Shown piece by piece: positions 1,183-33,286 of a DNA stretch of 35,032 nt. The position numbers were made by a program, and so were the translations under genes. The stretch is from Candidatus Berkelbacteria bacterium (GTDB lineage: Bacteria > Patescibacteriota > UBA1384 > JACPKC01). Under the pieces are notes generated by a model. It saw only the letters and a list, made by a program, of their open reading frames with translations. It searched no databases and was not told the origin of the DNA. Each line of letters starts with the position of its first letter. The stretch's first letter is position 1. Where the stretch lies: NCBI GenBank assembly GCA_016198415.1, contig JACQIO010000003.1:1-35032 (forward strand), given 5' to 3'.

Positions 1183-1214
1183 ACAATAATGTGGACGATC
1201 GTCCACATTATTGT
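1183..1214. repeat. 32-bp perfect palindrome, GATC centre
   Basis: Both arms match without a mismatch around GATC (1197-1200); the central part reads GTGGACGATCGTCCAC and the outer part ATAAT/ATTAT. The 28 central bases are shared with the palindrome at 18344-18381. TACAAT at 1182-1187, a possible -10 box, is inside the left arm, so an operator for the downstream SRPBCC gene is possible. A four-base-loop hairpin is the alternative. Confidence 0.85.
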
Positions 1215-2105: not shown

Positions 2106-2141
2106 TATCCCCTTGATCAGATCCCAGGAGCAACAACCGTT

Positions 2142-2163
2142 TTGCCTACGATCGTAGGCAAAT
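2142..2163. repeat. 22-bp perfect palindrome, GATC centre
   Basis: TTTGCCTACGA is followed by its exact reverse complement, centred on GATC at 2151-2154. It sits between convergent genes. Its ACGATCGT core resembles the palindromes at 1183 and 18344, but the outer arms differ. Confidence 0.75.
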
Positions 2164-6074: not shown

Positions 6075-6112
6075 GTGTGCCATAACCTGACGGCCGTCTG
6101 ATTACGGTACAC
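6075..6112. promoter_or_regulatory. 38-bp inverted repeat, probable operator (PaaX-like class)
   Basis: An imperfect palindrome centred on GACGGCCGTC (6089-6098), with outer arms GTGTGCC and GGTACAC. Read on the minus strand it agrees with the element at 32384-32422 at all but about five positions. TGGCACACT at its minus-strand end resembles an extended -10. It lies about 40 bases upstream of the promoter at 6007-6035. A regulator site is the best reading; the protein is not proven. Confidence 0.7.
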
Positions 6113-15930: not shown

Positions 15931-17730
15931 ATGACCGGGCTCGGCACTCTTGGTGTCCAAGTCACTTGGCTGGTGCTCGCCGCACTCTACTGGATGCTCA
16001 CCGCTGGCGTTGGCCTGGCCACGCTGCGGGCACTCCGGCTCCGTCTGGCGCCCTCGGTCACCCGCCTCGTCCTGGCAGTCGCCACTGGCTGGACCGTGGC
16101 TGGCCTGGTCCTCTTTGGTCTGGGCTTGGCTGGCCTCCTCAGCCGAGAGCTCATCCTCGTCTTGACCATCCTCACGATCCCCCTCGCGGTCCACCACGCC
16201 CCGTGGGAAGATCTGGGAATCCTGCGCCGCTTCCCCCAGCTACCGACGGCAGCACGGACGATCGCCGTTGGCCTGGCCGGTGTTGCCACCATCACCTTGC
16301 TCGGTGCCCTGGCGCCGGATGTGGAGTTCGACTCCACCTGGTACCACCTGCCCGATGCCCAGCGCTTCTTGGCCGAGCACGCCGTTCGGGTCCACGCCCA
16401 ATCGATCCAGGATATCGCCGCCTTCCTGCCCAAGCTTCCGGAGCTGCTCTTTGCCTGGGTACTCGCGCCCAACCCCACCAGCCCCACCCTCGCGCAGCTC
16501 AGTCACTGGCTGGCCGGCGGGCTGTTGGCCGCTGGTACGTACGCGCTCGCTCGCCGCGTGAGCCAGCCAACGGGGGCACTCCTGGCCACCGCCACCGTCT
16601 ACCTGGCCCACAGCGTTGGCTGGCTCTCCCAGACCGCCTACGCCGATCTCTTTGTGGGGCTGTTTGCCGTCAGCATCGCCCTCGCCCTACTCAAGGCGAG
16701 CGACTCATCTCACGGTCGTAATATGATTGGACTGGCTGGCCTCTTGACCGGGGCGCTCTTGCTGAGCAAGCTCCAGGCAATATTTTTCCTGCCCGCCATC
16801 GCCCTCGGAGCGTTCGCGGCTCGTCAGCGCTGGCAGGATGTGGTGGTGGTCCTCGGCCTGGGACTCTTGGTGGTCGCGCCCTGGTACATCCTGGTCTGGA
16901 CCACCACCGGCTCACCCTTGGGCTTGGCTGGCTACTGGCCACCCGGGGACGTCCACTACGGCGGCGGCGCCAACTTCCTCGACTGGCTGATCCGGATCCA
17001 TCCGACGGTCTTTGCGAGCCGCCTGGTCCAGGTCTTGCTCGAGACCTCGCCACTCTTGGTCCTGTCCGTCCTGCCGCTCTTGGCGTGGAAGCAGCTGTCC
17101 CCCACCGCCCGCTGGCTCATTGTGATTGGCCTGGTGACCCAACTAGGCTGGACGTACAATCCAGTGCCAGTTGATCGCTACGGCCTGCCGGCCCTGCCGC
17201 TCTTGGCCGCTGGCGTGGCGACACTTTACACGATCGGAAACCGTGTCATCCGGGCGACCCTCCTCCTGGGCTTGCTCGTCTTGGCCGTACCCCGCGCCAG
17301 CCTGATCGTCCAGGCTGCTCACGATCGGTTCCCCGTCGCCCTTGGGGCTGAGTCGCGAACCGCCTACCTGGATCGTCAGCTCCACGACAACCTCTGGATC
17401 TACTGGGATACGGAACAGCGCGTTCCCAAGATCCTGGGCAACGGCACGGCCCTCCTTCTGACCCACAACTCGTTCTACGTCAACGTCCGATCGATCGATC
17501 TCATCCAGTTCGCCCACGAAGCGCTCGGGGAGTCAGCCACGGTCAACGAGGTCCTGGCTGCGTTCGCCGAGGCCAAGATCACCCATCTGGTCCACACCCG
17601 CCCCTTCACCCTCGAATCCTTCCTGGGCGAACTCCCGCTCTCCGCAGCTGATCAAGTCACCCTCAGGACTCACCTTCGCCTGGTCTACCAGAGCCCCAAC
17701 CACCTGACCGTCTGGGAACTGGTGCCATGA
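15931..17730 (+). CDS. GT-C type membrane glycosyltransferase (GT39/ArnT-like)
   Basis: 599 aa, ATG two bases after the upstream stop. About 11-13 hydrophobic segments. The first large outer loop carries FDSTWYHLPDAQRFLAEH (133-150), matching the Asp...Tyr-His motif with which GT-C enzymes bind polyprenyl-phosphate sugars. A later helix pair with LLSKLQAIFFLPAIALGAFA and VVAPWYILVWTTTGSPLG fits the same superfamily. The C-terminal 150 residues form a soluble outer domain. The likely role is transfer of a lipid-linked sugar onto an acceptor outside the membrane. The ATG of the next gene overlaps its stop (ATGA). Confidence 0.85.
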   Translation: MTGLGTLGVQVTWLVLAALYWMLTAGVGLATLRALRLRLAPSVTRLVLAVATGWTVAGLVLFGLGLAGLLSRELILVLTILTIPLAVHHAPWEDLGILRRFPQLPTAARTIAVGLAGVATITLLGALAPDVEFDSTWYHLPDAQRFLAEHAVRVHAQSIQDIAAFLPKLPELLFAWVLAPNPTSPTLAQLSHWLAGGLLAAGTYALARRVSQPTGALLATATVYLAHSVGWLSQTAYADLFVGLFAVSIALALLKASDSSHGRNMIGLAGLLTGALLLSKLQAIFFLPAIALGAFAARQRWQDVVVVLGLGLLVVAPWYILVWTTTGSPLGLAGYWPPGDVHYGGGANFLDWLIRIHPTVFASRLVQVLLETSPLLVLSVLPLLAWKQLSPTARWLIVIGLVTQLGWTYNPVPVDRYGLPALPLLAAGVATLYTIGNRVIRATLLLGLLVLAVPRASLIVQAAHDRFPVALGAESRTAYLDRQLHDNLWIYWDTEQRVPKILGNGTALLLTHNSFYVNVRSIDLIQFAHEALGESATVNEVLAAFAEAKITHLVHTRPFTLESFLGELPLSAADQVTLRTHLRLVYQSPNHLTVWELVP

Positions 17731-18287
17731 GCCCGGCCCGATCTCTCCTCCTGACCCTCCTGACGATCGTCCTCCTCGGCTGGTCCCTCTGGAGCTACCT
17801 GGACCGCCACGCCCCCACGCTCAGTTGGTGGAAGCCGACGACTGTTTGGCAGTCCCTGGCCGCCAGTCGTACCTGGCTGGCCACCGATCTCCCACACCAG
17901 GGTGCGGGCAGTGGTACAGGCATCACCGCCGAGCGAACCGTCCCCGGCTTCTTCCTCTCCGGGCCATACGCGCCAGTCCTGGCTGGCTGGTATCGGCTCG
18001 AGATTGACGGGACGAGTCCCACCAGCGAGCGGGTCCTCCACGTTCAGCTGACCTCAGATCAGGGCGAGACGATCCTCCGGAAGCTCGATGTCAACGGCTC
18101 AGCGCTGCCCTTGGTCACGGAGCTCGATCTCCCCACGCTGGCTGACCTTGAGATCCGCTTGGCTGCCACCAGCGCAACGCCGGTCACCATTGAGGCGATC
18201 ACGCTCCGTCGCATCGAGTTCTCCCAACGTCGCCTCCGCGACGACCTCATCGCCCAGCTGCAGCGCTGGTTCACCCAGCCCTCGTGA
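17727..18287 (+). CDS. Membrane-anchored beta-sandwich-like protein
   Basis: 186 aa, coupled to the GT-C gene through an ATGA overlap. An N-terminal helix (LLLTLLTIVLLGWSLWSYL) anchors a domain of short strands: GFFLSGPYAPVLAGWYRLEI, VLHVQLTSDQGETILRKLDV, LADLEIRLAATS, PVTIEAITLRRIEF. The order and the phrase 'GWYRLEI' recall jelly-roll carbohydrate-binding domains, though no family is certain. Last gene of the operon; probably a partner of the hydrolase or the GT-C enzyme at the cell surface. Confidence 0.75.
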   Translation: MSPARSLLLTLLTIVLLGWSLWSYLDRHAPTLSWWKPTTVWQSLAASRTWLATDLPHQGAGSGTGITAERTVPGFFLSGPYAPVLAGWYRLEIDGTSPTSERVLHVQLTSDQGETILRKLDVNGSALPLVTELDLPTLADLEIRLAATSATPVTIEAITLRRIEFSQRRLRDDLIAQLQRWFTQPS

Positions 18288-18343
18288 GATCATCCCGCCA
18301 CGTGAGACGGTCCAGTCCGCCTGCACCCGATGGACCGGATAAA

Positions 18344-18381
18344 TCAACCATAATGTGGACGATCGTCCACATTATGGTTGA
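18344..18381. repeat. 38-bp perfect palindrome, GATC centre
   Basis: Nineteen bases, ending GTGGACGA, are followed by their exact reverse complement. The central 28 bases match the palindrome at 1183-1214, except that the outer base pair differs. It sits between convergent genes and has no T tract. Confidence 0.85.
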
Positions 18382-18418
18382 AAGTGAGATGGACACACCA
18401 GGGGGCTAGCTCTAGGCA

Positions 18419-18447
18419 GCAAAAGACCTGGGGCGAACCCCAGGTCT
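18419..18447 (-). terminator. Intrinsic terminator of the HhH-protein gene
   Basis: AGACCTGGGG and CCCCAGGTCT form a perfect ten-pair stem around CGAA (TTCG on the minus strand). On the minus strand it is followed by TTTTGCTG. Confidence 0.8.
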
Positions 18448-18459
18448 CTCCTCCTTCCC

Positions 18460-19011
18460 CTAGCGCCTTGGCCCCGGCTCGAGTCCATGCTCGTGGAGGA
18501 GTTGTTTGAGTGCCTCCTGACTGGCCGGCCCAATGCCCTTGATGGAGAGCAGCTCCAGTTCCCCCCACCCGGCCGCCAGCTGCCGGAGCGTCAGCGTCCG
18601 CCAGGCTGGCCGCTTGGCGAGCACCCGGAGCGCTCGCCTCTGCTGACTCGAGAGTGGGACCTCCACCCTGAGGAGCCGCGGCAGCGCGAGTTCCGTCCGG
18701 ACCTCGCGGGCCGTCTGCCCCATGAGACGACTGACGATGTCCGGTTCGCTGGTCTCCGTGTCCAGGAAGACCGTCCGCCACCGATCCTTGAGGGCGGCGA
18801 TGAGCTGCATCGAGAGGGTCTTTTCCAGCAGGGCAACCGCGAACCCGCCCTCAGGCGTCTTGAGGAGCTCGAGGACATCCGTTGGCCCCACCCGGCCAGC
18901 CTTCCAGGGCTCGGAGATGTCCACCTGGTTTCCGAGGCCCCAGCGCCGGTGCACCTCGCGCACTCGCTGAACAAGTGCCTCACTCGTTGCGATGAGAAGA
19001 ACACGTCGCAC
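18460..19011 (-). CDS. Hypothetical protein with C-terminal helix-hairpin-helix
   Basis: The start chosen is GTG 19011 because GGAGGTGAGGAG lies just upstream and a promoter at 19077-19104 lies between it and the previous gene's terminator; a longer frame to 19203 would cross that terminator. 183 aa. The N-terminal part begins VRRVLLIATSEALVQRV and has an alpha/beta feel. The C-terminal part (155-177) reads LSIKGIGPASQEALKQLL, the same helix-hairpin-helix pattern as the RNA polymerase alpha C-terminal domain, which binds DNA backbone. A DNA-binding or transcription-associated role is an inference. Confidence 0.7.
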   Translation of the reverse strand: MRRVLLIATSEALVQRVREVHRRWGLGNQVDISEPWKAGRVGPTDVLELLKTPEGGFAVALLEKTLSMQLIAALKDRWRTVFLDTETSEPDIVSRLMGQTAREVRTELALPRLLRVEVPLSSQQRRALRVLAKRPAWRTLTLRQLAAGWGELELLSIKGIGPASQEALKQLLHEHGLEPGPRR

Positions 19012-19076
19012 CTCCTCACCTCCCTTCAACCTGTCTGTAAAGACTGCGATCCAGCGTTGAACTCGATCGACGGCTG

Positions 19077-19104
19077 AGTCTAGCAGCTGAGGCCCAATTT
19101 GCAA
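19077..19104 (-). promoter_or_regulatory. Promoter of the HhH-protein gene
   Basis: On the minus strand TTGCAA (19104-19099), 16 bases and TGC-TAGACT (19085-19077) form a promoter with an extended -10. The leader would be about 60 bases. Confidence 0.6.
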
Positions 19105-19109
19105 GGAGA

Positions 19110-19134
19110 GGGACCGGGCTGTCTGCCCGGTCCC
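19110..19134 (-). terminator. Intrinsic terminator-like hairpin
   Basis: GGGACCGGGC and GCCCGGTCCC form a perfect ten-pair stem with a five-base loop. The minus-strand sequence after it is pyrimidine-rich (TCTCCTTGC). It ends the 19917-19157 gene pair. Confidence 0.6.
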
Positions 19135-19156
19135 GGTGAGGAGACTTGCCTCACAG

Positions 19157-19411
19157 CTACTTCCGCCGCTTGATCCGAACGCGCCGAACGCGCCACTCAC
19201 CATGGCAGTAGGGCCGCTCGTAGGTGAGCTCGAACAACGTCCGGCTGACTCGGCGCGCTTCTAGCGCCACCAGGTAGCCGCAGCGCTCGGCCGCCAGCGC
19301 CGCCGTCCAGGCCATCGATCGCTGGCAGGGCTGGTTCTCCACCCTGACCGCGGTCAGCGGCTGGCGATCGATCCGACCGTCCTGAACCATCTGGATGATC
19401 GCGAGCGTCAT
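19157..19411 (-). CDS. Hypothetical basic 84-aa protein
   Basis: ATG 19411 shares its A with the TGA of the upstream gene (TGATG), so translation is coupled. The protein starts MTLAIIQMVQDGRIDRQPL and ends in a very basic tail (WRVRRVRIKRRK), with three cysteines in the middle. The basic tail suggests nucleic-acid contact. I recognise no family. Confidence 0.65.
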   Translation of the reverse strand: MTLAIIQMVQDGRIDRQPLTAVRVENQPCQRSMAWTAALAAERCGYLVALEARRVSRTLFELTYERPYCHGEWRVRRVRIKRRK

Positions 19412-19917
19412 CAGGCCACCCCTGTGGGCCGCGCCGACTTCCGGGCGATGCGCCGTCTCCTCATGTAGTCGCGGAGCATCACCAGCAGCCCTTCGGGACC
19501 CACATCTTCACGCTGGAAGATGCCCCGGAATCGCGTGGCGTCGATCCCCTCGAGCTCAGCCCCGCTGCCGTTGCGAAAGACCCAGACGTCCGCCAGAAGA
19601 TCGCGGGCAACGCGGGCGTTCTCCAGCTGCCGAGCGGTCTGGGCGTCTGCGATCACCAACGTCACCCGCTCTCGCGCGACCAGAGCGGCCAGGCTACCAA
19701 TCCCATACTGGCTGGGCCTCTGCCGCGCCAGCCAAGAGAACGCTCCAACCGAGCAGTCCGTCCAGAGATCCGCGAGCGTCTCCTCGATCATCGCTCGCCA
19801 CGCCGGGTCGTGTTCAAGCACTAAGATCCTGACTCTGCCCTGTGCCACTGCACTGCACCATCCTCTCCAAGTTGGAAAGCTGGCGACCAGGGACACACCC
19901 TGGCAGCCATCAATCAT
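19411..19917 (-). CDS. Response-regulator receiver-like protein
   Basis: 168 aa from ATG 19917, which lies seven bases after TGC-TATACT. From residue 29 the sequence follows the receiver fold: VRILVLEHDPAWRAMIEETL (acidic pocket Glu 35, Asp 37), then VTLVIADAQT with Asp 91 at the phosphoacceptor-like position, and a final helix before an Arg-rich tail (MRRRRIARKSARP). The Lys of the switch region is not obvious, so phosphorylation is uncertain. The first 28 residues do not belong to the fold; an alternative start at an internal GTG cannot be excluded. It heads a small operon with the basic 84-aa protein. Confidence 0.6.
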   Translation of the reverse strand: MIDGCQGVSLVASFPTWRGWCSAVAQGRVRILVLEHDPAWRAMIEETLADLWTDCSVGAFSWLARQRPSQYGIGSLAALVARERVTLVIADAQTARQLENARVARDLLADVWVFRNGSGAELEGIDATRFRGIFQREDVGPEGLLVMLRDYMRRRRIARKSARPTGVA

Positions 19918-19924
19918 CGCCCGG

Positions 19925-19933
19925 AGTATAGCA
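19925..19933 (-). promoter_or_regulatory. Extended -10 box of the receiver-like gene
   Basis: On the minus strand TGC-TATACT ends seven bases before ATG 19917. This near-consensus extended -10 supports a leaderless start. Confidence 0.6.
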
Positions 19934-19966
19934 CGCCGCTCGGGGTGAACTGTGAAACGCGAAAGG

Positions 19967-21067
19967 CTAGGAACGCTGCCCAACCTGCTTGAGCACCGCG
20001 AGGGTTTCTCGCGCGGCCTTCTCCCAAGAGAACTGCTGGACCCGTTTTGAGCCAGCGGCCACGAGCCGGGCCCGGAGCTTGGGATCGGTCAAGAGACGCT
20101 TGAGGGCCTCTGTCAGGGCCCTCGTGTCAGCCGGATCAACGGTCAGGGCGGCCTCACCGACTACCTCGGGCAGCGAGGAGGTGTTGGCCGTCACCACTGG
20201 CGTCCCGGCAATCATCGCCTCAAGCGGCGGCAACCCAAAGCCCTCGTACCAACTCGGGTAGGCAAAGGCGGTCGCCAGGGCGTAGAGGCCAGGCAGATCC
20301 TCGGTGGGAACGCTCCCCAATTCACGTAACCAGCCGCCTGCGGTGCCGACCGCGATTGCCTTGGCCAACGCCTCGGTGTTCCAACCCCGCCGGCCCACTA
20401 GGAGCAGCGGTGACTGCGATCGAAGCGCGGGCGGGAGCTGGCGATAGGCCCGAATCAGCCCATCAACGTTCTTGCGCGGCTCGAGCGTACTCACAAAGAG
20501 CGTGAAGGAGGTGGGCAGCCCGTACTTCTTCACAAGCGTCGACTCCGAGGTCGGCTGCGGGGGGAGTGGGAAGGCCGCCTCGTGGACCACGGTCACCTTG
20601 CCGGTGGTGTGGGGAAAGAGCCGCTCCACGTCCCGCTTGGTCGAGTCCGACATCGCGATGAGATGGCTGGCGCGCCGAGTCGCCAGCGGCAGGCCAAGCC
20701 GCTCCATGATCGCGGTCTTGAGGGCCGGCCGAGCCCGGGGCTCCACAAGCACCGCGAGATCGTGGAGGACGAGGACGCTCGGGACTGGGGAGAAGAGAAT
20801 CGGGTGGTAGCCCGTGGGCGAGAGGAAGACGTCGGTACGCCGCCGGACCAGATCGAACGCCAACCAGAGGAAGCGGAGACCGGGCAGCTTGGGCAAGACC
20901 ACGAACGTGAAGTTAGTGGGGTATGACTCCCGGGGCCGCGCCCAGACGTAGAGGAGGTACTGGTTGGTTCGGTCGACCGCGGCCAGGGCCCGGACGAGTT
21001 CGGCCACGTAGCGGGCTTTGCCAGACCGCGGATCGGCAATCTCTCGGGCATCGATGGCAATCACCAT
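19967..21067 (-). CDS. Family 4 glycosyltransferase (GT-B fold)
   Basis: 366 aa from ATG 21067 ([20 protein letters not shown]); a TTG two codons earlier is possible but less likely. Typical GT4 blocks: [83 protein letters not shown], and the catalytic segment [15 protein letters not shown] with [14 protein letters not shown] after it. TACACT lies seven bases before the ATG. It is the last gene of the minus-strand run from the MurE-like gene through the flippase, so it probably builds the exported glycan. Confidence 0.9.
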
Positions 21068-21074
21068 AGGCAAC

Positions 21075-21103
21075 AGTGTATCGATCCGATGGCCGATTGT
21101 CTG
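21075..21103 (-). promoter_or_regulatory. Promoter of the GT4 gene
   Basis: On the minus strand CAGACA, 17 bases and TACACT (21080-21075) end seven bases before ATG 21067. The -35 overlaps the last codon and stop of the flippase gene, allowing separate expression. Confidence 0.45.
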
Positions 21104-22552
21104 CTACGTTCGACGCAGCAGCGCTCGGATCGTCTCCGGATCAACGGCGCCCAGCCGGTAGACGAGCACCCCGTAGACGAGGATCGCCACCGGCACCTCC
21201 AGCCACAGGTTCGCACCCGGCAGCGCCCAGAGCAGACCGGCCATGACCGCACTGGCGGCCAGCGATTTGGGGATGGTCTGGAGTCTGACCGGGAAGGTGA
21301 TCAGGCGAGACGCCAGCAGGATCGAGACGGTCAGGATGAGCGCCTCGGTGGCCACGGTGATGGCGGCCGCGGCCAAGTAGCTCAGGCGGGGGATGAGGAG
21401 GAGGTTGAGGCCAATGTTGAAGACCGCGTAGCCCACATTCGGGGCCACCAGCCAGCGCTGCTTGCCAGCCGCCAGAATGAGGGCGTTGAAAATGAAGGAG
21501 AGGTAGGAGAGGCCAACGCCAACCATGAGCACCTGGAGAATGAGGACCGGCGTGATCGCCACCCCACCGAGCGTCAGGGTCGCCACGTGGACAAACTCCG
21601 GCCCGGCAATCGCCACGAGCGGTTCCGCCAGGAGCATCCCACCCACCACCATCGGGAAGGTCAGCAAGGTGAGAAGGTCAAAGCTCTGCTGGAAGACTAT
21701 CCGCCACTTGGGATCCTCCTGGCCGTAGAGCTTGGTCAAGATCGGGAAGATTGAGTTGATGAAGAAACCCGGGAGGGCAATCAAGACCTCCAGGATCCGA
21801 AACGGCACGCCGTAGATGCCCACCTCCACGGAGGACTTGAGGAGCGAGAGCAGGATCGTGTCCACCTTGAAGTAGACGAACTGGAGCACCGAGTTGATCC
21901 CCAGCGGCAGCGCCTCGGCGACGAGGTAGCGCCAGTAGCCGAGATCGGCGGCTATTCGGATGGGCACGAGGGCGTTCGTCAGGAAAAACGCAACCAGGGA
22001 CGTGACGAGGTAGCCGGCAGTGACCGCCCAGAAGACCTCGGCTAAGCCGCCACCACCCGCCGCAATCCAGGCGGCCAGTCCCACCACCAACCCGCGGCCG
22101 ATGACGTCGGCAATCACCGCCCGGCCCATCTGCAGCTTGGCTTGGAGGACGGCAATGAACGTGTTCTGGAAGGTCAGGGCAAACTGACCGATGGCGATGA
22201 TCCCCAGGCCGGCCAGGACCGGCGCCGGGTAGTCCAGTTGCCAGCCGATGGCCAGACCCAGGCCATAGACCAAGACCGCCAGGACGGTCCGCAGGCCAAT
22301 CACGTTCGCCACCGCTTCCTGAGGCCGCGCGTCCGGCAGCGAGAGCTCCCGGACGAGAATGAAGAAGAATCCAAAGTCCGCCAGGACCGCAATCATGCCC
22401 ATAAAGGTCACGACCGTGGTGTACTGGCCGAGGCCCTCGACGCCCAGGAGTCGGCCCAAGATGGCCAGCAGCGCGAGCGAAAGCCCGACGGTCAGGATCT
22501 TACCGAGGATTTGGACGAGCGTGTTGGACGCCACCGTCCGAGTGGTGGTCAT
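21104..22552 (-). CDS. Wzx-like polysaccharide flippase (MOP superfamily)
   Basis: 482 aa, with about 12-14 membrane helices spread through the whole length. It starts MTTTRTVASNTLVQILGKIL, the usual polysaccharide-exporter opening with Asn-Thr and a Gly-Lys in helix 1, then QYTTVVTFMGMIAVLADFGF in helix 2. The central part has VYFKVDTILLSLLKSSVEVG, a well-conserved segment of the family (TM7 region). These proteins turn lipid-linked oligosaccharides across the membrane. The ATG overlaps the stop of the upstream ligase gene (ATGA), so the two are coupled. Confidence 0.9.
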   Translation of the reverse strand: MTTTRTVASNTLVQILGKILTVGLSLALLAILGRLLGVEGLGQYTTVVTFMGMIAVLADFGFFFILVRELSLPDARPQEAVANVIGLRTVLAVLVYGLGLAIGWQLDYPAPVLAGLGIIAIGQFALTFQNTFIAVLQAKLQMGRAVIADVIGRGLVVGLAAWIAAGGGGLAEVFWAVTAGYLVTSLVAFFLTNALVPIRIAADLGYWRYLVAEALPLGINSVLQFVYFKVDTILLSLLKSSVEVGIYGVPFRILEVLIALPGFFINSIFPILTKLYGQEDPKWRIVFQQSFDLLTLLTFPMVVGGMLLAEPLVAIAGPEFVHVATLTLGGVAITPVLILQVLMVGVGLSYLSFIFNALILAAGKQRWLVAPNVGYAVFNIGLNLLLIPRLSYLAAAAITVATEALILTVSILLASRLITFPVRLQTIPKSLAASAVMAGLLWALPGANLWLEVPVAILVYGVLVYRLGAVDPETIRALLRRT

Positions 22553-23784
22553 CGGGCGCCTCCGCGCGGGCCAGCCAACACCGCCGCACTCGCCACCAGG
22601 ATCCAGAACACGACCATCCCATCATTCTTCCAGATCGGCTGATCAACAAGGCCGTGAGTCAGGAGGACAAACCAGGCACCGATGAGCGCCGCAGCCGCAG
22701 GCCCTCCGGAGCCTTGGCGAAGGAGGGCGAACAGTCTCTTGCCAGCCAGCACCAGCGATCCGATCAATCCTAGAAGACCGACGAGTCCTAGTTCCACCCA
22801 CACGCCGACCACCAGGTTATGCGGCGTCCGGGCCCGGGGCGTGATGAACTCGGGGAAATTGACGCGATCAGCCGTCAGTTCACCAAAGGCGGTCTGAAAG
22901 CCGCCCAGTCCGGTGCCGAGAACTGGGTTGAGGCGCACGAGCTCCCCGGTCACCGCCCAGAGTTGCCAGCGGACGTTGGTGCTGGTGACCGTCCGACTGC
23001 CGTCATCCGAGAGCGAGAAATCCGGTTTGACGACCCACCACGAGCCGATGGCGGCCAGCAGCAACCCGACGACAAGGACGGTTTTGGCACCCTTCAAGCG
23101 CCAGAACCACTCCGCTCCCAGCACCAACGCCAAGATGCCACCGCCAACCGCTGCCACCAGTCCCGCCCGCGATCCGGACACCGCAATCGCGGCCAAGAGC
23201 AATCCCGGGACAATCCAGGAACCGATGTGCGATATGATTTGCGATTTGCGATTTGCGATTTGCGATTTGACCAGCCAGCTGGTCAGTGGCACCAGTGGCG
23301 CCAAGGCGAATGCCAGGTAGTTGGGCGACGCGTCCGGATCGAGGTCGTAGGGTCCGATCGTTCGAGACGCCCCGGGCGTGATCGATTCAACGAGCGCCCA
23401 GAGCGCAACGACCAGTCCCCCAGCCAACAGTCCCCAGAGAATGGTTCGGAGGTCGAGCACAGTCCGGACAAACGCCAAGAGCAGCAGGTAGACCAGGATC
23501 GGATCGACGATGAACCCTTTCCAGAGGCCAAGGGCGGTTCGGCTGTCATCGGCAATCACAATTCCAGCCGCGGCTCCAAGGAGTATTAGGCCGGCGGGCC
23601 ACAGCCAGACCCGTCGCGACCAGAGTCGAGACCGAACTGCACGATCGTGAGCAAACTGCCAGACACCCACTACGACCGTGAGGTAGATGAGGACTTCGAG
23701 CAGGGTCGAAGGTATACCGAAGAGCTCGAAGCGCACGAGGTAGGTGGGGAGGAGGACAGCGATGAGGGCGATGCGGGAAGTCAT
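22549..23784 (-). CDS. O-antigen ligase/polymerase-like protein (Wzy_C)
   Basis: 411 aa from ATG 23784; an in-frame TTG two codons earlier is the alternative. About ten membrane helices. Wzy_C signatures: AIAVSGSRAGLVAAVGGG near the middle and, after a long outer loop with GTGLGGFQTAFGEL, RTPHNLVVGVWVELGLVG. Members join or polymerise lipid-linked glycans outside the membrane. A stretch reading VKSQIANRKSQIISHIG between two helices comes from four seven-base repeats (23231-23269), an in-frame insertion. Overlaps the flippase start. Confidence 0.85.
   Translation of the reverse strand: MTSRIALIAVLLPTYLVRFELFGIPSTLLEVLIYLTVVVGVWQFAHDRAVRSRLWSRRVWLWPAGLILLGAAAGIVIADDSRTALGLWKGFIVDPILVYLLLLAFVRTVLDLRTILWGLLAGGLVVALWALVESITPGASRTIGPYDLDPDASPNYLAFALAPLVPLTSWLVKSQIANRKSQIISHIGSWIVPGLLLAAIAVSGSRAGLVAAVGGGILALVLGAEWFWRLKGAKTVLVVGLLLAAIGSWWVVKPDFSLSDDGSRTVTSTNVRWQLWAVTGELVRLNPVLGTGLGGFQTAFGELTADRVNFPEFITPRARTPHNLVVGVWVELGLVGLLGLIGSLVLAGKRLFALLRQGSGGPAAAALIGAWFVLLTHGLVDQPIWKNDGMVVFWILVASAAVLAGPRGGAR
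23231..23269. repeat. Seven-base array inside the O-antigen ligase gene
   Basis: GATATGA is followed by four copies of TTTGCGA. The frame is kept and the product gains a short basic loop. Confidence 0.85.
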
Positions 23785-23789
23785 CGACA

Positions 23790-23912
23790 ATTACCAAGCT
23801 TCAAATTCCAATGTCCAGACAATATCCAATTGACCAATGTTCGAGTTTGGACATTTAGACATTGGTCCTTGTCTGATCATTGGAGCTTGGTCATTGATCA
23901 TTGGAACGATCC
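23790..23912. repeat. AT-rich seven-base word array between the two ligase genes
   Basis: The region is made of words such as TTGGTCA, TTGATCA, ACATTGG and TGACCAA, the same set as upstream of dnaX (9300-9420). It also encodes the last residues of the upstream ligase (RSNDQ). Confidence 0.75.
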
Positions 23913-25345
23913 GCTGCGCGGATAAGGATCAAATTCTGCACCGCCACCAGCAGTCCGACGAGCACCCAGACGTGAATAATGTAGAGCGTGGAGAAGAAGT
24001 TGTACTGGATAAGCGTGCCAACGAAGGCCGCCGTCACCCCCACCAGGGCGGCGGTGAGCAACGGATCGCGGGTGGCGCGGTACGCCACCACGGAGCGGTG
24101 GAGCAGGACCAACGCCAGGACCAGAAACGCACCCAGACCGATGACGCCGGTCTCGGCCAAGAGCTCCAGGTACTCGTTGTTGACAATCGGCCAGTCATCG
24201 ACCGGTCCGGCGGGGTAACCCTTGTCGAACGGACCGTAGTTCCCAATCCCAATCCCCAGCCAGGGACTGGTTCGCCAGGCCCGCAACGCGGTCTCGTACG
24301 TGGCAAATCGACCCTGGGTTGACTCGCCAAAGGAGAAGTCGGACACGGTCGCGTGACTCGTGAAGCGAGCGAGGGCATCGCCTTGACCGCGACTGACAAA
24401 GCCAGCTGCCCCCACCAGCGCCACCAGGCCAATCGCAAGGAGGGCCAGGATGTGGCGGGGCGTGAGTGTTTGGTGCGGGAGCGTCGCCAGGATCACCAGG
24501 CCGGCCGCCGCCAGGGCGAGGTACGCCCCGCGCGAGAGCGTCAGGACCAGGATCAAGAGCAAGAGACCGAGGAGCGCCCAGCGCCACGGCCGCGACCAAC
24601 CGGGTACCTGGAGAAAGAGGGTCGAGGCCACCAGGCTGATTGGGAGCAAGAGGAAGTTGCCCAGGTAGAGGGGCTCAATGGAGAAGGCTTGGACGCGCGG
24701 GAACCCAAAGATCGCCTTGGTGTAGAGCTCGCGCAGGCCCGTCAGGGACGGGGAGAGACCGGCCACATCGCCCACAAACTGGTAGATGGCAAACAGCCCC
24801 ACTACCGTGGCTGAGGCCCAGAGCACCGTCAGGGCCGTCCGGAGGCGATCCTTGGTAGTCAGGAGGTTGACGACCACCAGTTCGAAGGAAGCCGTGAAGA
24901 GGATGAAGACGATCACCAGCCCGGCTCGGCTCTGCTCGAGCGCCAGTGTGGCCGAGAGCAAAATCGCCCCGGCCAGGAGGTAGGCCGGGAGACGGATTGG
25001 GTTGGGAGCGAGTCGGCGCCGCTCCCGAAGCCAGAGGAGTGCCCAGGCCACAAGCGTGACCGCCCCCAGGAAAAAGTTGATCCGAACGGTGATCCCGCCC
25101 ACATCCAGGCTCGGAATCCGTTCGAACGGGAGGAAAAAGAGGATCAGCCAGAGACCCCGAACCGGATCGCGCAGGATTGCGAGCGCGGTGACGATCCCCA
25201 CCAGGATCGTGCCGACGAGTGCGATCGTCCCGAGCTCACCGACGCTGGCAATCCCGGCCACGCCCAGCATGGCCGCCAGACCGGCCAGGGTCCAGGAGCG
25301 GAGCCACGTAGTACGTAGTGACGTAGTGAAGGGGTTGCTCGTCAT
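23891..25345 (-). CDS. O-antigen ligase/polymerase-like protein (Wzy_C)
   Basis: 484 aa from ATG 25345. About 11-12 membrane helices, with LTLSRGAYLALAAAGLVIL and the outer-loop signature GIGIGNYGPFDKGYP followed by NNEYLELLAETGVIGLGAF, both typical of the Wzy_C family. It resembles the downstream ligase in layout, so one may be the polymerase and the other the ligase; which is which cannot be told. The N-terminal residues TTSLRTTWLRSW are written in seven-base words (ACGTAGT). Starts 10 bases after the MurE-like gene. Confidence 0.85.
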   Translation of the reverse strand: MTSNPFTTSLRTTWLRSWTLAGLAAMLGVAGIASVGELGTIALVGTILVGIVTALAILRDPVRGLWLILFFLPFERIPSLDVGGITVRINFFLGAVTLVAWALLWLRERRRLAPNPIRLPAYLLAGAILLSATLALEQSRAGLVIVFILFTASFELVVVNLLTTKDRLRTALTVLWASATVVGLFAIYQFVGDVAGLSPSLTGLRELYTKAIFGFPRVQAFSIEPLYLGNFLLLPISLVASTLFLQVPGWSRPWRWALLGLLLLILVLTLSRGAYLALAAAGLVILATLPHQTLTPRHILALLAIGLVALVGAAGFVSRGQGDALARFTSHATVSDFSFGESTQGRFATYETALRAWRTSPWLGIGIGNYGPFDKGYPAGPVDDWPIVNNEYLELLAETGVIGLGAFLVLALVLLHRSVVAYRATRDPLLTAALVGVTAAFVGTLIQYNFFSTLYIIHVWVLVGLLVAVQNLILIRAADRSNDQ

Positions 25346-25379
25346 CACTACGTTCCTACCTGACTACATCACTACGTTC
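25306..25379. repeat. Seven-base words across the MurE-like/ligase junction
   Basis: ACGTAGT units and, past the start codon, CATCACTACGTTCC followed by a similar 14-base unit. They encode the ligase N-terminus and the C-terminus of the MurE-like protein (RSDVVR). Confidence 0.65.
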
Positions 25380-26726
25380 GAGGACTTCCTCAATCACCTT
25401 CCGATCGGAATACGGCACGAGCTTACTGCCCACCACCATCACCTCCTCATCTCCCTTCCCCGTGATGAGAACGAGGTCGGTGGCTTTAGCCAGGCTCAAG
25501 GCTTTCCGGATCGCCTCGGCTCGATCGAGGATGGTGAAGAAGTTGGTGCCGTGCTCAAGCGACTTCTGGCCCGCCCCCTTCTTCACGCCGGCCACGACGT
25601 CGGCCATGATGGCGCTCGGATCCTCATCGTACGGATCCTCGTCGGTGACGATGACAATATCGGCGTAGCGGCCCGCCAAGGCGCCGAGCAGCGGCCGCTT
25701 CTCTGGATAGCGACGACCGGTGGCACCGCCGACGTGGATGATCCGACCTTTGACGAGTGGTCGGAGCGTCTCAAACACCTTCTTGAGGGCATCGGGCGTG
25801 TGGGCGTAGTCGAGGACGATCGCGTACGTCTGGCCGTGGTCAACCAGCTCCATCCGCCCGGGCGACGCCGGTAGCGCCTCTAGTCCACTGACGATCGTGT
25901 CAAGTGGAATATTCGCCCCATGCGCGGCCGCGGCGGCAGCTAGCGCATTCTCCACGTGAAACTGGCCGATGAGCTTGAGGTTGACCTCGGCAGATTCCCC
26001 GTTTAATCCGAGGCGAAACCTCGTCCCCCTCAAACTCACCCGTACCCCCCTCGCAACAACGTCGAGACGCTCCGGGGACACTTGCGAAGTGGATCCGCCG
26101 GCTGGCGGAGACTCTTCGGAAGTGAAAGAGGAGCGGCTCGTTCCCTTGACTCTAAATGCCAACTTCCGCACCGCCGGATAGCTCAGGAACACCGCCGCAC
26201 TGGGATCATCGCCGTTGACCACACTCACCCGGTGCGGCAACACGAACAGTGTTTCTTTGGCTTGTCGATACGCCTCTTTGGTGTGATGGTACTCAAGGTG
26301 ATCGGACGTCACGTTGGTCAGGATGGCGGTGTCGATCGGGATGCCCCAGATTCGGTGTTGATCCAACCCAATGCTCGTTACCTCGAGCACCGCCTCAGTG
26401 GCACGATTGGCGACCATGCGGCGCAGGAGCCGCTGGAGCACAAACGGGTTCTGGGTCCCGAGCTTGGTGTCGTTGCGCCACAACTCCTTGCCGTCGGAGA
26501 ACCGGACAGTCGACATCAAGCCGACCTTTCGCCGAGCTGTTGTCAAAATCGAATGGAGCAGCAAGGCCGTCGTCGTCTTCCCATCCGTCCCCGTCACCGC
26601 AAACACCCGCAGCCGCCGGCCCGGGAAGAAGTAGATAAGGTTGGCCACCACCGCCCCCAGCCAGTGCCACCCCCGCACCACCGGCCTCGGGACGATTTGT
26701 CGCAAGAGATTTTTGATCGCTTCCAT
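25356..26726 (-). CDS. MurE-like Mur ligase lacking the N-terminal UMP-MurNAc domain
   Basis: 456 aa. Mur ligases use ATP to add an amino acid to a nucleotide- or lipid-linked precursor. Here the ATP loop VTGTDGKTTT is already at 44-53, so the N-terminal substrate domain of MurE is missing and is replaced by a short, partly hydrophobic segment (about 20-35). Conserved central parts: EVTSIGLDQHR, LTNVTSDHLEYH, FHVENALAAAAAAHG, SPGRMELVDHG and VLDYAHTPDALKKV. The amino-acid pocket motif DNPR of meso-diaminopimelate MurE is replaced by EDPY in TDEDPYDEDP (361-370). About 20 residues around SEESPPAGGSTSQ come from an inserted hairpin (26085-26118). A promoter six bases before ATG suggests a leaderless message. 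It heads the glycan-export run. Confidence 0.88.
   Translation of the reverse strand: MEAIKNLLRQIVPRPVVRGWHWLGAVVANLIYFFPGRRLRVFAVTGTDGKTTTALLLHSILTTARRKVGLMSTVRFSDGKELWRNDTKLGTQNPFVLQRLLRRMVANRATEAVLEVTSIGLDQHRIWGIPIDTAILTNVTSDHLEYHHTKEAYRQAKETLFVLPHRVSVVNGDDPSAAVFLSYPAVRKLAFRVKGTSRSSFTSEESPPAGGSTSQVSPERLDVVARGVRVSLRGTRFRLGLNGESAEVNLKLIGQFHVENALAAAAAAHGANIPLDTIVSGLEALPASPGRMELVDHGQTYAIVLDYAHTPDALKKVFETLRPLVKGRIIHVGGATGRRYPEKRPLLGALAGRYADIVIVTDEDPYDEDPSAIMADVVAGVKKGAGQKSLEHGTNFFTILDRAEAIRKALSLAKATDLVLITGKGDEEVMVVGSKLVPYSDRKVIEEVLERSDVVR
26085..26118. repeat. REP-like hairpin inserted in the MurE-like gene
   Basis: CGAAG and CTTCG at the ends and ATCCGCC/GGCGGA inside form an imperfect hairpin. 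It translates to a Ser/Pro/Gly-rich loop without breaking the frame. Confidence 0.55.
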
Positions 26727-26732
26727 GTGATG

Positions 26733-26762
26733 AGTATATCTGTTACAGACCCCCTATGTCAC
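26733..26762 (-). promoter_or_regulatory. Promoter directly before the MurE-like gene
   Basis: On the minus strand GTGACA (26762-26757), 18 bases and TATACT (26738-26733), then six bases to ATG 26726. No Shine-Dalgarno site fits. Confidence 0.65.
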
Positions 26763-26770
26763 TGATGGAA

Positions 26771-26804
26771 AAGAAAAAGGGCTACACAATATCAGTGTAG
26801 CCCT
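26771..26804 (-). terminator. Intrinsic terminator of the 26888-27409 gene
   Basis: AGGGCTACAC and GTGTAGCCCT form a perfect ten-pair stem with a seven-base loop. On the minus strand it is followed by TTTTTCTTTTCC. Confidence 0.85.
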
Positions 26805-26842
26805 GGGCCTGGGGCGGGAGCGACGCTCTACCGCGCAACCAG
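26778..26842. repeat. Copy A of a shared gene-end segment
   Basis: The hairpin plus GAGCGACGCTCTACCGCG and CAACCAG closely match 30795-30863, where the same bases form the stop codon and last residues (LVAR) of another gene. Here no matching gene is attached. Confidence 0.65.
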
Positions 26843-26887
26843 GTATTGTATACTTCCCTCGAGACCTAACCCAGGATCTGTAGATGT

Positions 26888-27409
26888 TTACTCTTCTTCC
26901 TGAGGCCAGTCAGTGAGATCGATGAAGCACGCGGGGACAACCGTCAAGACCTTGTGAGACTTCGACTGGACTGTGGTGACCACAAAGGACTTCCCCTGCC
27001 ACTGGACTACATCACCGCAGAGCAGGGCTTCGGTTACTTGCTCGCGAAGTTCGCTAGGAAATTCTTTGTAGTCCTCGTACTCCTCGGTCCACGAGAAGTG
27101 TGGAACCAGTTGCCACTCCGGCAATGCTTCGGCATAGGTGTCAAGCGAAACCCAGCTGAAATCCTGTCCCTCATAGACCTTGTGGCCATCGATCTCGATG
27201 TCGATCCCTCGGGCTAGCACGTCAAGCATCGTCCGAGCAAACGGACGGAGTATCATTTGCTCAGTATACTCGCCACTTAACCAGGCCTTGGCAAGGATCT
27301 CACGGGATCCGGGCACCATGCCGAATTCTCTGGGTGAGCGCGACAGCAGCAAGGGAATGACCTCGCTGAGTGCCTCGATGTTAATGTACACCTGTTCCGT
27401 CCTCCGCAT
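26888..27409 (-). CDS. Hypothetical protein divergent from the first TrmB gene
   Basis: 173 aa from ATG 27409. An alternative is GTG 27391, which has GGAGG eight bases upstream inside the first codons. Acidic and Trp/Tyr-rich, with no membrane segment: PREFGMVPGSREILAKAWL, then IEIDGHKVYEGQDFSW and a C-terminal strand-rich part (VVQWQGKSFVVTTV, HKVLTVVPACFIDL). The last part may be a small beta barrel. Its promoter shares the -35 region with that of the TrmB gene (27444-27487), so the two are probably co-regulated. I recognise no family. Confidence 0.7.
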   Translation of the reverse strand: MRRTEQVYINIEALSEVIPLLLSRSPREFGMVPGSREILAKAWLSGEYTEQMILRPFARTMLDVLARGIDIEIDGHKVYEGQDFSWVSLDTYAEALPEWQLVPHFSWTEEYEDYKEFPSELREQVTEALLCGDVVQWQGKSFVVTTVQSKSHKVLTVVPACFIDLTDWPQEEE

Positions 27410-27443
27410 CTCTATTTATTAAGCCACCCAAAGGTGACCGAAA

Positions 27444-27487
27444 AGAATACTTGCAGGATTGACAAAGTTCAATACCTACACAATACT
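27444..27487. promoter_or_regulatory. Back-to-back promoters with interlocked -35 boxes (first TrmB module)
   Basis: Plus: TTGACA (27459-27464), 17 bases, AATACT (27482-27487). Minus: TTGAAC (27472-27467), 17 bases, TATTCT (27449-27444). The two -35 boxes are separated by two bases in the near-palindrome TTGACAAAGTTCAA. Confidence 0.75.
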
Positions 27488-27525
27488 GTGGTGGCGATGA
27501 TAGGTTCAATCGAGAGGCTGCCACA

Positions 27526-28284
27526 ATGACTGAGACTGATCCTTTGCGAGAGCTGGGACTGACAGCACGGGAGGCGGAGGTCTACCGCCTTCTCTTGAAG
27601 CTGGGTGATTCGTCGGTGGCTGAACTCCACGCCGCCTCGAGGATTCACACCCAGCTCATCTACCGGGCGATCCAGGGCCTCTCGTCCAAGGGCCTCGCGA
27701 CCGTTGTCCGGCGTAAGTACAAAACGTACGTCCGGGCGGAAAGCCCCTCCACGCTCGAGAAGCTCGCGGCCGCTCACCTTGCGGACATCCGGGCCGAACT
27801 CCCCAAGCTCCAGGCGATCCACAAATCCGGCAAGGACGCGGTCATTCGTGTTGCGCAAGGGGTGGAGGCAATCCGAGATGTCCGACTTAAGGCGATCGAG
27901 GCGCTGCCGGAGGGAGGTACCTTCTATATCATCGGCGGGGCTGGTGGGAGCAAACATGAGGCCGGGCAGTACTACGACGTCATGGGCAGGCTCCACGAAA
28001 AGATTGAGAAGTTGCGCAAGAGAAAACGGATCCGACGTCTGATGATCTCCTACGAGAACATGCGATCAGTGACCAAGCGCCTCGGCGGCGACGCTGAACC
28101 GCTCTCTGAGTTCCGCTACCTCCCCGAGGACTTCCCGACGCCGACAAGTACCTACATTTATGGCGACACGGTGGCGATCCTGATCTGGCCCCCCGAACCA
28201 GCCGTGATCACGATTGAGTCCGAGCGCCTCGCCCAAACCTACCGCCAGCAGTTTGAGACGCTCTGGAATCTCGCCAGGCCGTAG
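27526..28284 (+). CDS. TrmB-family transcriptional regulator (1)
   Basis: 252 aa from ATG 27526 with GAGAGG upstream. The N-terminal winged helix (about 5-75) reads LRELGLTAREAEVYRLLLKL, SSVAELHAASRI, then LIYRAIQGLSSKGLATVVRR. A helical linker with many charged residues follows (80-105). The C-terminal effector domain has DAVIRVAQGVEAIRDVRLKA, FYIIGGAGG, KRKRIRRLMISYEN and ends TYRQQFETLWNLARP. TrmB proteins bind sugars in archaea; the ligand here is unknown. The closest relative in the window is the second TrmB (29677-30411). The promoter overlaps that of the divergent 26888-27409 gene. Confidence 0.88.
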   Translation: MTETDPLRELGLTAREAEVYRLLLKLGDSSVAELHAASRIHTQLIYRAIQGLSSKGLATVVRRKYKTYVRAESPSTLEKLAAAHLADIRAELPKLQAIHKSGKDAVIRVAQGVEAIRDVRLKAIEALPEGGTFYIIGGAGGSKHEAGQYYDVMGRLHEKIEKLRKRKRIRRLMISYENMRSVTKRLGGDAEPLSEFRYLPEDFPTPTSTYIYGDTVAILIWPPEPAVITIESERLAQTYRQQFETLWNLARP

Positions 28285-28295
28285 TCCGCACAGTA

Positions 28296-28304
28296 TGGTA
28301 GACT
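28296..28304 (+). promoter_or_regulatory. Extended -10 box six bases before the coiled-coil gene
   Basis: TGG-TAGACT is followed by exactly six bases and ATG 28311. The same arrangement stands before the paralogue at 30525. Confidence 0.65.
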
Positions 28305-28310
28305 GATTCC

Positions 28311-28568
28311 ATGACACTCACCAATGACGACCTTCAGAAGATCAAGGCCGTCGTGGATTCTGGACACGAGTTGACTCGCTCATACGTCGATCAGAAGATC
28401 GAAGGGCTTCGCAAAGACATGGCAACGAAACAAGATCTCCTACTGCTGGAGGAGCGTCTGAACGGCAAAATTGATTCCGTCAAACAGATGCTCGAGGAAA
28501 ACCACGCGGCAACAGTGGGTGACGTTGAGCTCCTCAAGTCGCAGGTCGCCCAGCCCCAAGCTAAGTAG
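28311..28568 (+). CDS. Small coiled-coil protein (paralogue 1)
   Basis: 85 aa, MTLTNDDLQKIKAVVDSGHE at the start, then a long charged helix with the ATKQDLLLLEERL segment and heptad-spaced Leu, Ile and Val. The start region, ATK-x-L segment and spacing match the protein at 30525-30788. Such short coiled coils with ATKxDL repeats are frequent in candidate-phyla genomes; their role is not established. It follows TrmB 1 by 26 bases but has its own promoter and no Shine-Dalgarno site. Confidence 0.8.
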   Translation: MTLTNDDLQKIKAVVDSGHELTRSYVDQKIEGLRKDMATKQDLLLLEERLNGKIDSVKQMLEENHAATVGDVELLKSQVAQPQAK

Positions 28569-28586
28569 GATAATCAGACACAAAGA

Positions 28587-28617
28587 AGGCCGGGTGCGTC
28601 CTCCAACGCCCCGGCCT
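28587..28617. terminator. Bidirectional terminator-like hairpin
   Basis: AGGCCGGG and the matching arm ending CCGGCCT pair, with GCG/CGC extending the stem past a bulge. The minus-strand side continues TCTTTGTG. It lies between convergent genes. Confidence 0.65.
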
Positions 28618-28632
28618 CTTGCTTGCCCTCCT

Positions 28633-29496: not shown

Positions 29497-29588
29497 CGGT
29501 TCATCCTCCAATTTTAGAGTTGTGAAGGAGCAAAACTCCCTCCGGTTGTGTCACACTAGCCGGATCGGCTGCTTGAACGTGACGCGAG

Positions 29589-29633
29589 AGTATAGGTGAA
29601 AACCTTGACAATGTCAATAGTTTCACGTATATT
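29589..29633. promoter_or_regulatory. Perfectly interlocked divergent promoters on a symmetric operator (second TrmB module)
   Basis: Plus: TTGACA (29605-29610), 17 bases, TATATT (29628-29633). Minus: TTGACA (29617-29612), 17 bases, TATACT (29594-29589). Both -35 boxes lie in one 13-base palindrome. Outside it, GTGAAA (29596-29601) and TTTCAC (29621-29626) add a second symmetric half-site pair. GTTTCACG recurs at 29665-29672, near the TrmB start. Confidence 0.85.
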
Positions 29634-29676
29634 GTGATGAAAATATACCTGAAGCATTGGTAGGGTTTCACGCGCG

Positions 29677-30411: not shown

Positions 30412-30428
30412 AGATTGTTCTAGCGATC

Positions 30429-30474
30429 TTGCCACCCACCAGCGCCAACTCTTCGAGGCCCTTTGGCAGATCTC
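30429..30474 (+). pseudogene. Fragment of a TrmB C-terminus (copy 1)
   Basis: Read in frame it gives ATHQRQLFEALWQIS, which aligns with the AQTYRQQFETLWNLA tail of TrmB 1. It has no start and follows the stop of the intact TrmB 2. A near-identical copy lies at 32270-32316. Confidence 0.65.
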
Positions 30475-30509
30475 CGCTCCAGTCTCAGAAATCTCGTGAT
30501 TGCGGCTTG

Positions 30510-30518
30510 TGCTAGACT
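30510..30518 (+). promoter_or_regulatory. Extended -10 box six bases before the second coiled-coil gene
   Basis: TGC-TAGACT, six bases, then ATG 30525, with no Shine-Dalgarno site. The spacing is the same as at 28296-28311. Confidence 0.65.
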
Positions 30519-30524
30519 GAGCGT

Positions 30525-30788: not shown

Positions 30789-30794
30789 ACGAAG

Positions 30795-31364: not shown

Positions 31365-31414
31365 GTCACTCGCCTCCTGTTTGTTAATCGTCGACCATCG
31401 CTGATCGACTGGAT

Positions 31415-31452: not shown

Positions 31453-31464
31453 GAACCTCTAAAC

Positions 31465-32380: not shown

Positions 32381-32424
32381 AAAGTGTACCGTAACTCGAC
32401 GGCCGTTTGGTTATGGTACACTTT
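32381..32424 (+). promoter_or_regulatory. 44-bp inverted repeat over the PaaX-like gene promoter
   Basis: Arms starting AAAGTGTACC and ending GGTACACTTT flank a CGACGGCCG centre; most positions pair. TGG-TACACT (32414-32422), an extended -10, lies in the right arm. The sequence closely matches 6075-6112 read on the minus strand. Autoregulation by the gene product is likely. Confidence 0.7.
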
Positions 32425-33252: not shown

Positions 33253-33286
33253 GGTCCATAATCAGACGGCCGTCTGATTATGGACC
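33253..33286. repeat. 34-bp perfect palindrome, GGCC centre
   Basis: Seventeen bases, ending CAGACGG, are followed by their exact reverse complement. The GACGGCCGTC centre is shared with 6075-6112 and, in part, 32381-32424; the CATAAT arms resemble 18344-18381. It lies between convergent genes. Confidence 0.85.

Follow-up and report, generated by a model that had tools for sequence, protein, structure and literature searches.

Why should several long, perfect palindromes lie between the genes of a small bacterial genome, and is there a protein that recognizes them? The question is raised by a 35,032-nucleotide stretch of DNA (hereafter the window), which is contig 22 of a genome of 738,346 bases in 37 contigs that is 83% complete; the G+C content of the window is 62%. 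Its size and gene content, and the named organisms in which the gene arrangement recurs, suggest that the genome belongs to the candidate phyla radiation.

Palindromes of the window

A sequence-only reading of the window had reported four perfect palindromes and had suggested that they are sites for a dimeric protein or markers of gene ends. The three longest are found exactly where it had placed them (Table 1). The fourth, of 22 bp, exists as well, at 2141-2162 rather than at 2142-2163, a stretch one base off that is no palindrome. After these four, the longest other perfect palindrome in the window measures 14 bp. The palindromes at 1183 and 18344 do have a common centre, which is 26 central bases long and not 28 as had been reported; at arm position 14 they differ (C versus A), and the change is present on both arms. 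A layout of GAC, four-base palindrome and GTC, said to recur with different bases, holds at 1183, 18344 and 33253, and the 22-bp site reads TAC-GATC-GTA. The motif ATTAT is present within the arm of the family to which the palindromes at 1183 and 18344 belong (family A, see below). Rfam searches of the whole window at gathering scores gave three tRNAs and nothing else; the three tRNA genes lie on the minus strand at 34698-35032, where the end of the contig cuts one of them.

Table 1. Palindromes and the PaaX-like gene of the window.
Feature	Position	Strand	Remarks
Solo palindrome, family A	1183..1214	.	32 bp, perfect; family assigned by one-arm search
Partly decayed solo palindrome, family C	2141..2162	.	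perfect core of 22 bp
Decayed solo palindrome, family B	6077..6110	.	4 of 17 pairs broken
Solo palindrome, family A	18344..18381	.	38 bp, perfect; the site singled out by the sequence-only reading
Family B palindrome, left flank of PaaX-like gene	32381..32424	.	imperfect, 4 of 22 pairs broken
Gene for PaaX-like protein, 219 aa	32490..33149	+	PaaX_M (Cas2-like) at residues 102-177; no PaaX_C match; start codon chosen by us
Family B palindrome, right flank of PaaX-like gene	33253..33286	.	34 bp, perfect

Long perfect palindromes in this and other genomes

In 574 kb sampled from the window's genome (the window and 40 other stretches, one of which, 2.2 kb long, was masked) there are 17 perfect palindromes of at least 26 bp, where about none would be expected by chance. 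Ten of these belong to four families, A to D; the other seven stand alone at 26-30 bp, and some of these singletons resemble ordinary terminators (for example, stretch L168, 8363-8390). The first 303 kb sampled contain 12 perfect palindromes of at least 22 bp, versus zero in ten 303-kb Markov simulations, and palindromes of 10-16 bp are about as frequent there as in the Markov model. Samples of 20 other genomes of the group (334 kb, with one stretch apparently masked) yielded none of at least 26 bp, and none turned up in 81 and 62 kb of two genomes from the same family as the window's genome or in 298 kb sampled from one Saccharibacteria genome, which has two such sites elsewhere. They are also present in genomes G011, G053, G045 and G038, where the longest has 48 bp.

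A single universal motif was considered and rejected, as GTCCATAAT...ATTATGGAC occurs in one of 379 genomes of the phylum, namely the window's own; a wider pattern gave 51 contig matches, of which 10 are perfect palindromes and 41 are not. A perfect 40-bp palindrome in G053 (L239, 5239-5278) has the centre CACCGGTG and is unlike the other families. Separately, a repeat of about 110 bp at L196 9893-10015 is found on several G053 contigs as well, and since it matches both strands at several places in G053 it is probably an imperfect palindromic repeat in its own right.

Families, paired changes and decay

The palindromes fall into sequence families, four of them in the window's genome, with a low copy number of about 2-6 loci per family, counted in part within the sampled stretches. 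Copies were collected by a one-arm search, in which the second arm was not demanded, and this search returned two classes: perfect or nearly perfect copies, and copies with about 3-7 broken pairs. Unpaired changes between copies would have spoken against the sequence-only reading, and here the two classes differ: in the perfect copies changes are mostly paired across the axis, and in the second, decayed class unpaired changes are present. In family T (five copies in G045) the two variable inner pairs are both changed on both sides and no inner pair is broken, a pattern matched in 20 of 500 shuffles. Family D has eight pairs with changes in both arms, a number reached by 0 of 500 shuffles, in an alignment of five distinct rows that includes one copy from another genome, G028. 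Two copies of family W have different outer four bases, which are symmetric in each. In the Saccharibacteria set 1 of 500 shuffles reached the observed 14 cells with two-sided changes; the set is weaker all the same, as its number of pairs changed on both sides was reached by 42 of 500 shuffles and many of its pairs are broken. Paired changes in the perfect copies together with a separate decayed class fit a symmetric birth followed by decay; slow compensatory mutation is the poorer explanation of the paired changes, since few half-changed intermediates are seen in intact copies.

Two listed D sites, at the end of contig 7 and the start of contig 20, have common flanking bases and are probably one locus, so that family D has six loci rather than the seven listed; contigs C7 (stretch L176) and C20 (L169, L179) probably adjoin, the assembly having broken at the D palindrome. 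A 28-bp palindrome in G028 (L174, 1498-1525) has the GCTATATAGC centre of family D with several paired positions changed; G028 belongs to another family than the window's genome, and its sole match to the PaaX_M domain (see below) is on a different contig. An intact family C copy of 38 bp lies on contig C9 of the window's genome (L020, 3791-3828). Finally, an orthologous palindrome in Saccharibacteria is about 95% identical over 42 bases, versus 68% in the surrounding 1.2-kb alignment, and is the best 40-base bin of that alignment (0.93, with two other bins at 0.88 and 0.90). That it outconserves its surroundings suggests a kept host function or homogenization, and not a neutral relic.

Placement relative to genes

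Random placement, including placement inside genes, would have spoken against the sequence-only reading and is not what we find: none of 29 family sites in four genomes has its centre inside a called gene, even though 77% of the sampled DNA is called as coding, and one of the 29 overlaps a gene end by a few bases. Genes were called with a simple caller of our own and no annotation was used; not counted among the 29 are the D palindrome interrupted by the ends of contigs C7 and C20, the copies beside PaaX-like genes described below, those of Saccharibacteria and G053, and all seven singletons. One of these singletons, the 26-bp L016 4564-4589, is an exception outside the families, in that it lies within a called open reading frame (ORF).

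According to our gene calls three of the four window palindromes do lie between convergent genes, as had been reported (to the left of the palindrome at 1183 no gene was called). The idea that they mark gene ends at such junctions did not survive the wider count: of the 29 sites, 16 lie in tandem, 6 in convergent and 6 in divergent contexts and 1 at the edge of a contig, compared with 329 tandem, 60 convergent and 74 divergent among intergenic gaps of at least 60 bp, and convergent junctions are not special. A common neighbour gene other than PaaX was also rejected, since ten neighbours scanned had no Pfam family in common. On contig C8 (L019, 1666-3148) two identical 36-bp D palindromes enclose two called ORFs; neither these nor the next ORF beyond had any Pfam match, and the stop codon of an upstream amidase-like ORF, which we take to be gatA, falls inside the first of the two palindromes.

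A PaaX-like gene between two palindromes

The right-hand end of the window holds a PaaX-like gene with a family B palindrome on each side (Table 1). Two PaaX-like queries were compared by phmmer with all ORFs of at least 70 codons from the sampled stretches, and inverted repeats were then sought around each match. All eight short-form PaaX-like loci examined have palindromes of one family on both sides: the window, L194 of G045, L235 of G053, L047 of G011, L118 of a Saccharibacteria genome, L069 of Liptonbacteria, L077 of Wolfebacteria, and L042 of G011, where the gene is truncated. L047 and L118 came from contigs taken blind in genomes chosen for their palindromes, and L069 and L077 were retrieved by a palindrome pattern, which selects nothing for PaaX. 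A long form with a PaaX_C domain in the window's genome (L028) has no flanking palindromes. As a control, inverted repeats on both sides (within about 150 bp, with at most 5 broken pairs of 17) were found around 18 of 751 called genes, versus 7 of 7 intact short forms when start codons were set by hand and a few bases of overlap were allowed; with the caller's own gene ends, L235 is the only short form among the 18 genes that pass. A ninth locus is known from coordinates only, on contig 3 of G038, where GACGATCGTC occurs at 59887 and 60572 with a PaaX_M domain at 59996-60208 between them. A PaaX-like gene is physically linked to family B in the window and to related palindromes elsewhere.

Across 55 genomes (about 44 Mb in total, with 113 PaaX_M domains), 5 of 73 GACGATCGTC sites, at three loci, lie less than 700 bp from a PaaX_M domain, where about 0.3 would be expected; the reversed control pattern has 15 matches. 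GACGGCCGTC lies near PaaX_M at 2 of 51 sites, in the window's genome (G000) and in G030; the reversed control of this 10-mer is more frequent than the 10-mer itself, which therefore shows no enrichment as such. GGACGATCGTCC occurs in 5 of the 55 genomes, all five of which have PaaX_M; PaaX_M is found in 38 of the 55, 33 of these being without GGACGATCGTCC. Copies dispersed elsewhere in a genome match the family that flanks the gene there, namely T in G045, V and W in G011 and S in the Saccharibacteria genome G398, and in the window's genome dispersed, decayed family B copies match the family B copies at the gene. In that genome a gene association was found for family B only, and a third PaaX_M gene lies on contig 34. 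The ACGATCGT core of families A and C recurs in T and W, two families that have genes between their copies in G045 and G011; A and C are tied to PaaX solely through this core common to other genomes, and D has no tie.

At six of the loci (L194, L235, L069, L047, L077 and the window) the chosen start codon lies 8-74 bp beyond the end of a palindrome, and an extra palindrome copy is present downstream of the gene in all eight; L118 has two palindrome copies close together. There are up to 11 PaaX_M copies per small genome. The Liptonbacteria and Wolfebacteria proteins are 53% identical and their best-matching arms agree in 19 of 20 bases, and the G045 and G053 proteins are 55% identical with arms that are unlike; over seven loci the correlation between protein similarity and arm similarity is not significant (rho 0.32, with 370 of 5040 permutations as high).

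A viral or plasmid origin was rejected: a pattern scan of viral contigs returned 10 contigs with no perfect palindrome and no PaaX-like ORF, three protein scans found no relative, one protein gave zero matches against phages, and one gave three against plasmids, weak and partial. Three related regulators lie near the PaaX-like gene of the window (27526-28284, 29677-30411 and 31512-32252), of which two match TrmB and the third is related to one of these by BLAST. In G045 a stretch of about 57 bp is present in two copies that enclose a Tad4-like gene (L196, 6333-6902; Pfam 'Type I Thoeris inhibitor', E 4.4e-6); the gene lies shortly upstream of a palindrome, and its place in the sister genome G053 is taken by a different stretch of about 1.5 kb.

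The short PaaX-like proteins carry a Cas2-like domain

The window protein matches PaaX_M (PF20803) with E 1.1e-21 and CRISPR_Cas2 with E 4.4e-4, the latter under its cut-off, and scores 26.2 bits against TIGR01573 (cas2; cut-off 24.5). The seven intact short forms are 179-219 aa long, and all of them exceed the PaaX_M gathering score (51.6-77.2 bits versus 24). CRISPR_Cas2 was also matched by Pfam in five of the seven; Cas2 family scores are marginal, the PF09827 cut-off being reached by one and narrowly missed by four. Pfam found neither PaaX_C nor an HUH/Y1 transposase domain in any of the seven. Two of the four proteins scanned pass the TIGR01573 cut-off, and the four gave 31.4, 16.2, 27.3 and 34.3 bits against the PaaX repressor model TIGR02277, whose cut-off is 264.55.

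In an alignment of all seven, D-I-P, R, F, Q, S and W, among others, are invariant, and most of these positions correspond to Cas2. All seven retain the Cas2 aspartate, which E. coli PaaX (PDB 8a39) and L028 lack at the corresponding position. Two predicted structures have mean pLDDT values of 54.9 and 53.2, with a better central beta-alpha-beta-beta-alpha-beta part. The best Foldseek match was E. coli PaaX for one model and Cas2 structures for the other, with mostly weak E-values; since both models are of low confidence, these matches to PaaX and Cas2 are merely supportive.

Discussion

These observations lead us to propose that the palindromes are recognized by short PaaX-like proteins with a Cas2-like domain, whose gene would sit between copies of its own palindrome while other copies are scattered between genes, much as in REP/RAYT systems, which consist of repetitive extragenic palindromes (REPs) and REP-associated tyrosine transposases (RAYTs). 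Cas2 is a dimer, and a protein that combines a DNA-binding N-terminal part with a Cas2-like domain would bind a site of two-fold symmetry and could help to spread the palindrome. New copies would be born symmetric, a fold-back or hairpin intermediate serving to copy one arm into the other, and would decay afterwards. We hold it to be somewhat better than an even chance that the PaaX/Cas2-like protein recognizes, binds and spreads its own palindrome. The earlier suggestion of sites for a dimeric protein thereby gains a candidate, in that a DNA-binding-type protein is linked to family B and to related palindromes; binding, dimerization on the site, mobility and the fold-back origin are what we infer.

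With regard to mobility, no clean empty site or insertion difference was seen among the sister sequences compared, most of which do not cover the loci, and an attempt to define insertion boundaries from sister genomes was abandoned since the regions are too rearranged or the loci uncovered. No target duplication is obvious by eye in the outer flanks of seven loci. A separate second protein may do the moving. It is conceivable, though we would not yet lean that way, that several candidate phyla radiation lineages carry mobile elements of a new class, in which a non-HUH PaaX/Cas2-like protein spreads its own perfect, hairpin-copied palindrome.

The main competing explanation is an ordinary dimeric transcription regulator, for which the flanking palindromes would be autoregulatory operators and the scattered ones a regulon under selection for symmetry. 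The canonical PaaX is a repressor, to go by family and molecule names, a palindrome ends shortly before the chosen start codon in six loci, the orthologous Saccharibacteria site outconserves its surroundings, and a promoter-like match at 33234-33262 of the window extends into palindrome B. However, a regulator does not account well for the further copy after the gene in all eight loci, or for the fact that 6 of the 29 other sites are placed where two convergent genes meet at their 3' ends, one of them overlapping a stop codon; the multiplicity of PaaX_M in small genomes and the truncated copy suggest a proliferating gene instead, and sites of 30-48 bp that are symmetric out to their outer pairs are long for an operator. 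We therefore regard a plain regulator as unlikely, if still a serious contender.

The symmetry might also have arisen without such a protein. If the palindromes were bidirectional intrinsic terminators or 3' RNA hairpins, symmetric by accident and only incidentally linked to PaaX, one could understand why some singletons look terminator-like, why many matches to the wider pattern in other phyla resemble, to our reading, an A-tract, stem and T-tract with a four-base loop, and why a T-rich stretch comes after the 33253 site. That last site bears on the earlier statement that none of the window palindromes has a T tract, which is roughly right: by eye the palindromes at 1183, 18344 and 2141 have a perfect centre and no T tract after them, rather than a GC stem, loop and T tract, and a simple scan of 17001-35032 called only the 33253 site of the two perfect palindromes there, because TTCTTGGTTA comes after it. 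The same scan gave 12 terminator-like sites in all, versus a shuffled-sequence mean of 12.9, which is no excess. Symmetry here continues through the centre, where pairing is unneeded for termination, families recur at 30-48 bp within one genome, copies lie directly upstream of PaaX-like start codons, and convergent junctions are not clearly enriched, so that we consider terminators improbable. Arm-to-arm correction of any long inverted repeat, with no dedicated protein, is another route to symmetry, by quasipalindrome template switching or cruciform mismatch repair; it would explain why nearly all differences between perfect copies are paired and why even the copy-specific outer bases of family W are symmetric. 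It leaves the dispersal and the gene sandwich unexplained, though, and the decayed copies that persist in the same genomes with 3-7 broken pairs show that such correction is not general; we give it very little credence.

Should the preferred reading, in which the PaaX/Cas2-like protein recognizes and spreads its own palindrome, be correct, it would tie the Cas2-like domain of a PaaX-like protein to the making or binding of dispersed palindromes, might connect Cas2-type machinery with repeat biology, and would offer a testable DNA-processing system, visible in the sequence, in bacteria with small genomes. The paired changes are a natural record of how symmetric DNA gets copied or stays symmetric. 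In the open literature, with preprints outside the scope, we found no publication that ties PaaX to Cas2 together with palindromes, to Cas2-like proteins, to the candidate phyla radiation or to Parcubacteria, and none on standalone Cas2 in mobile elements of that group; broader literature searches gave nothing on such a system among the matches listed.

Comparison with known systems

Among known systems, short inverted repeats between genes are also typical of palindromic MITEs and intrinsic terminators; the palindromes described here differ from these in having no loop, mostly no T tract and no target duplication that we could see, and in that they sandwich a Cas2-like gene. The protein resembles the PaaX repressor (E. 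coli PaaX, PDB 8a39; TIGR02277) in that a Cas2-like PaaX_M domain (PF20803) follows a helix-rich part, but the palindrome-linked forms have no PaaX_C, fall far under the TIGR02277 cut-off in the four proteins scanned, and keep the Cas2 aspartate that E. coli PaaX does not have. With Cas2 and VapD nucleases they have the D-I-P...R...F..Q.S signature in common, and a low-confidence beta-alpha-beta-beta-alpha-beta model has Foldseek matches that include Cas2 and VapD (E 0.01 and weaker); the palindrome-linked proteins differ in an extra N-terminal part of about 100 residues, and any nuclease activity is putative.

The closest parallel in arrangement is with REPtrons, in which, in the portions of the reports consulted, a RAYT gene lies between two palindromes with further copies scattered outside genes, REP families are particular to one or a few genomes, and typical REPs number more than 100 copies per genome (PMC2817692; PMC3733652). 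As far as those portions go, the likeness extends to a gene between two palindromes of the same family, to dispersed extragenic copies and to families particular to a genome, and the difference in copy number is that of a handful here versus more than 100 for REPs. The protein also differs, being PaaX_M/Cas2-like with no Pfam match to an HUH (Y1) transposase, and so do the palindromes, many of which are perfect through the centre over 30-48 bp. Since by Pfam the protein is no RAYT, the system stands outside the RAYT family, though it may work similarly. It has the look of a repeat-spreading or repeat-binding system of a kind not yet described, and, if our interpretation is right, would be a parallel to RAYTs and REPs built on an unrelated protein.
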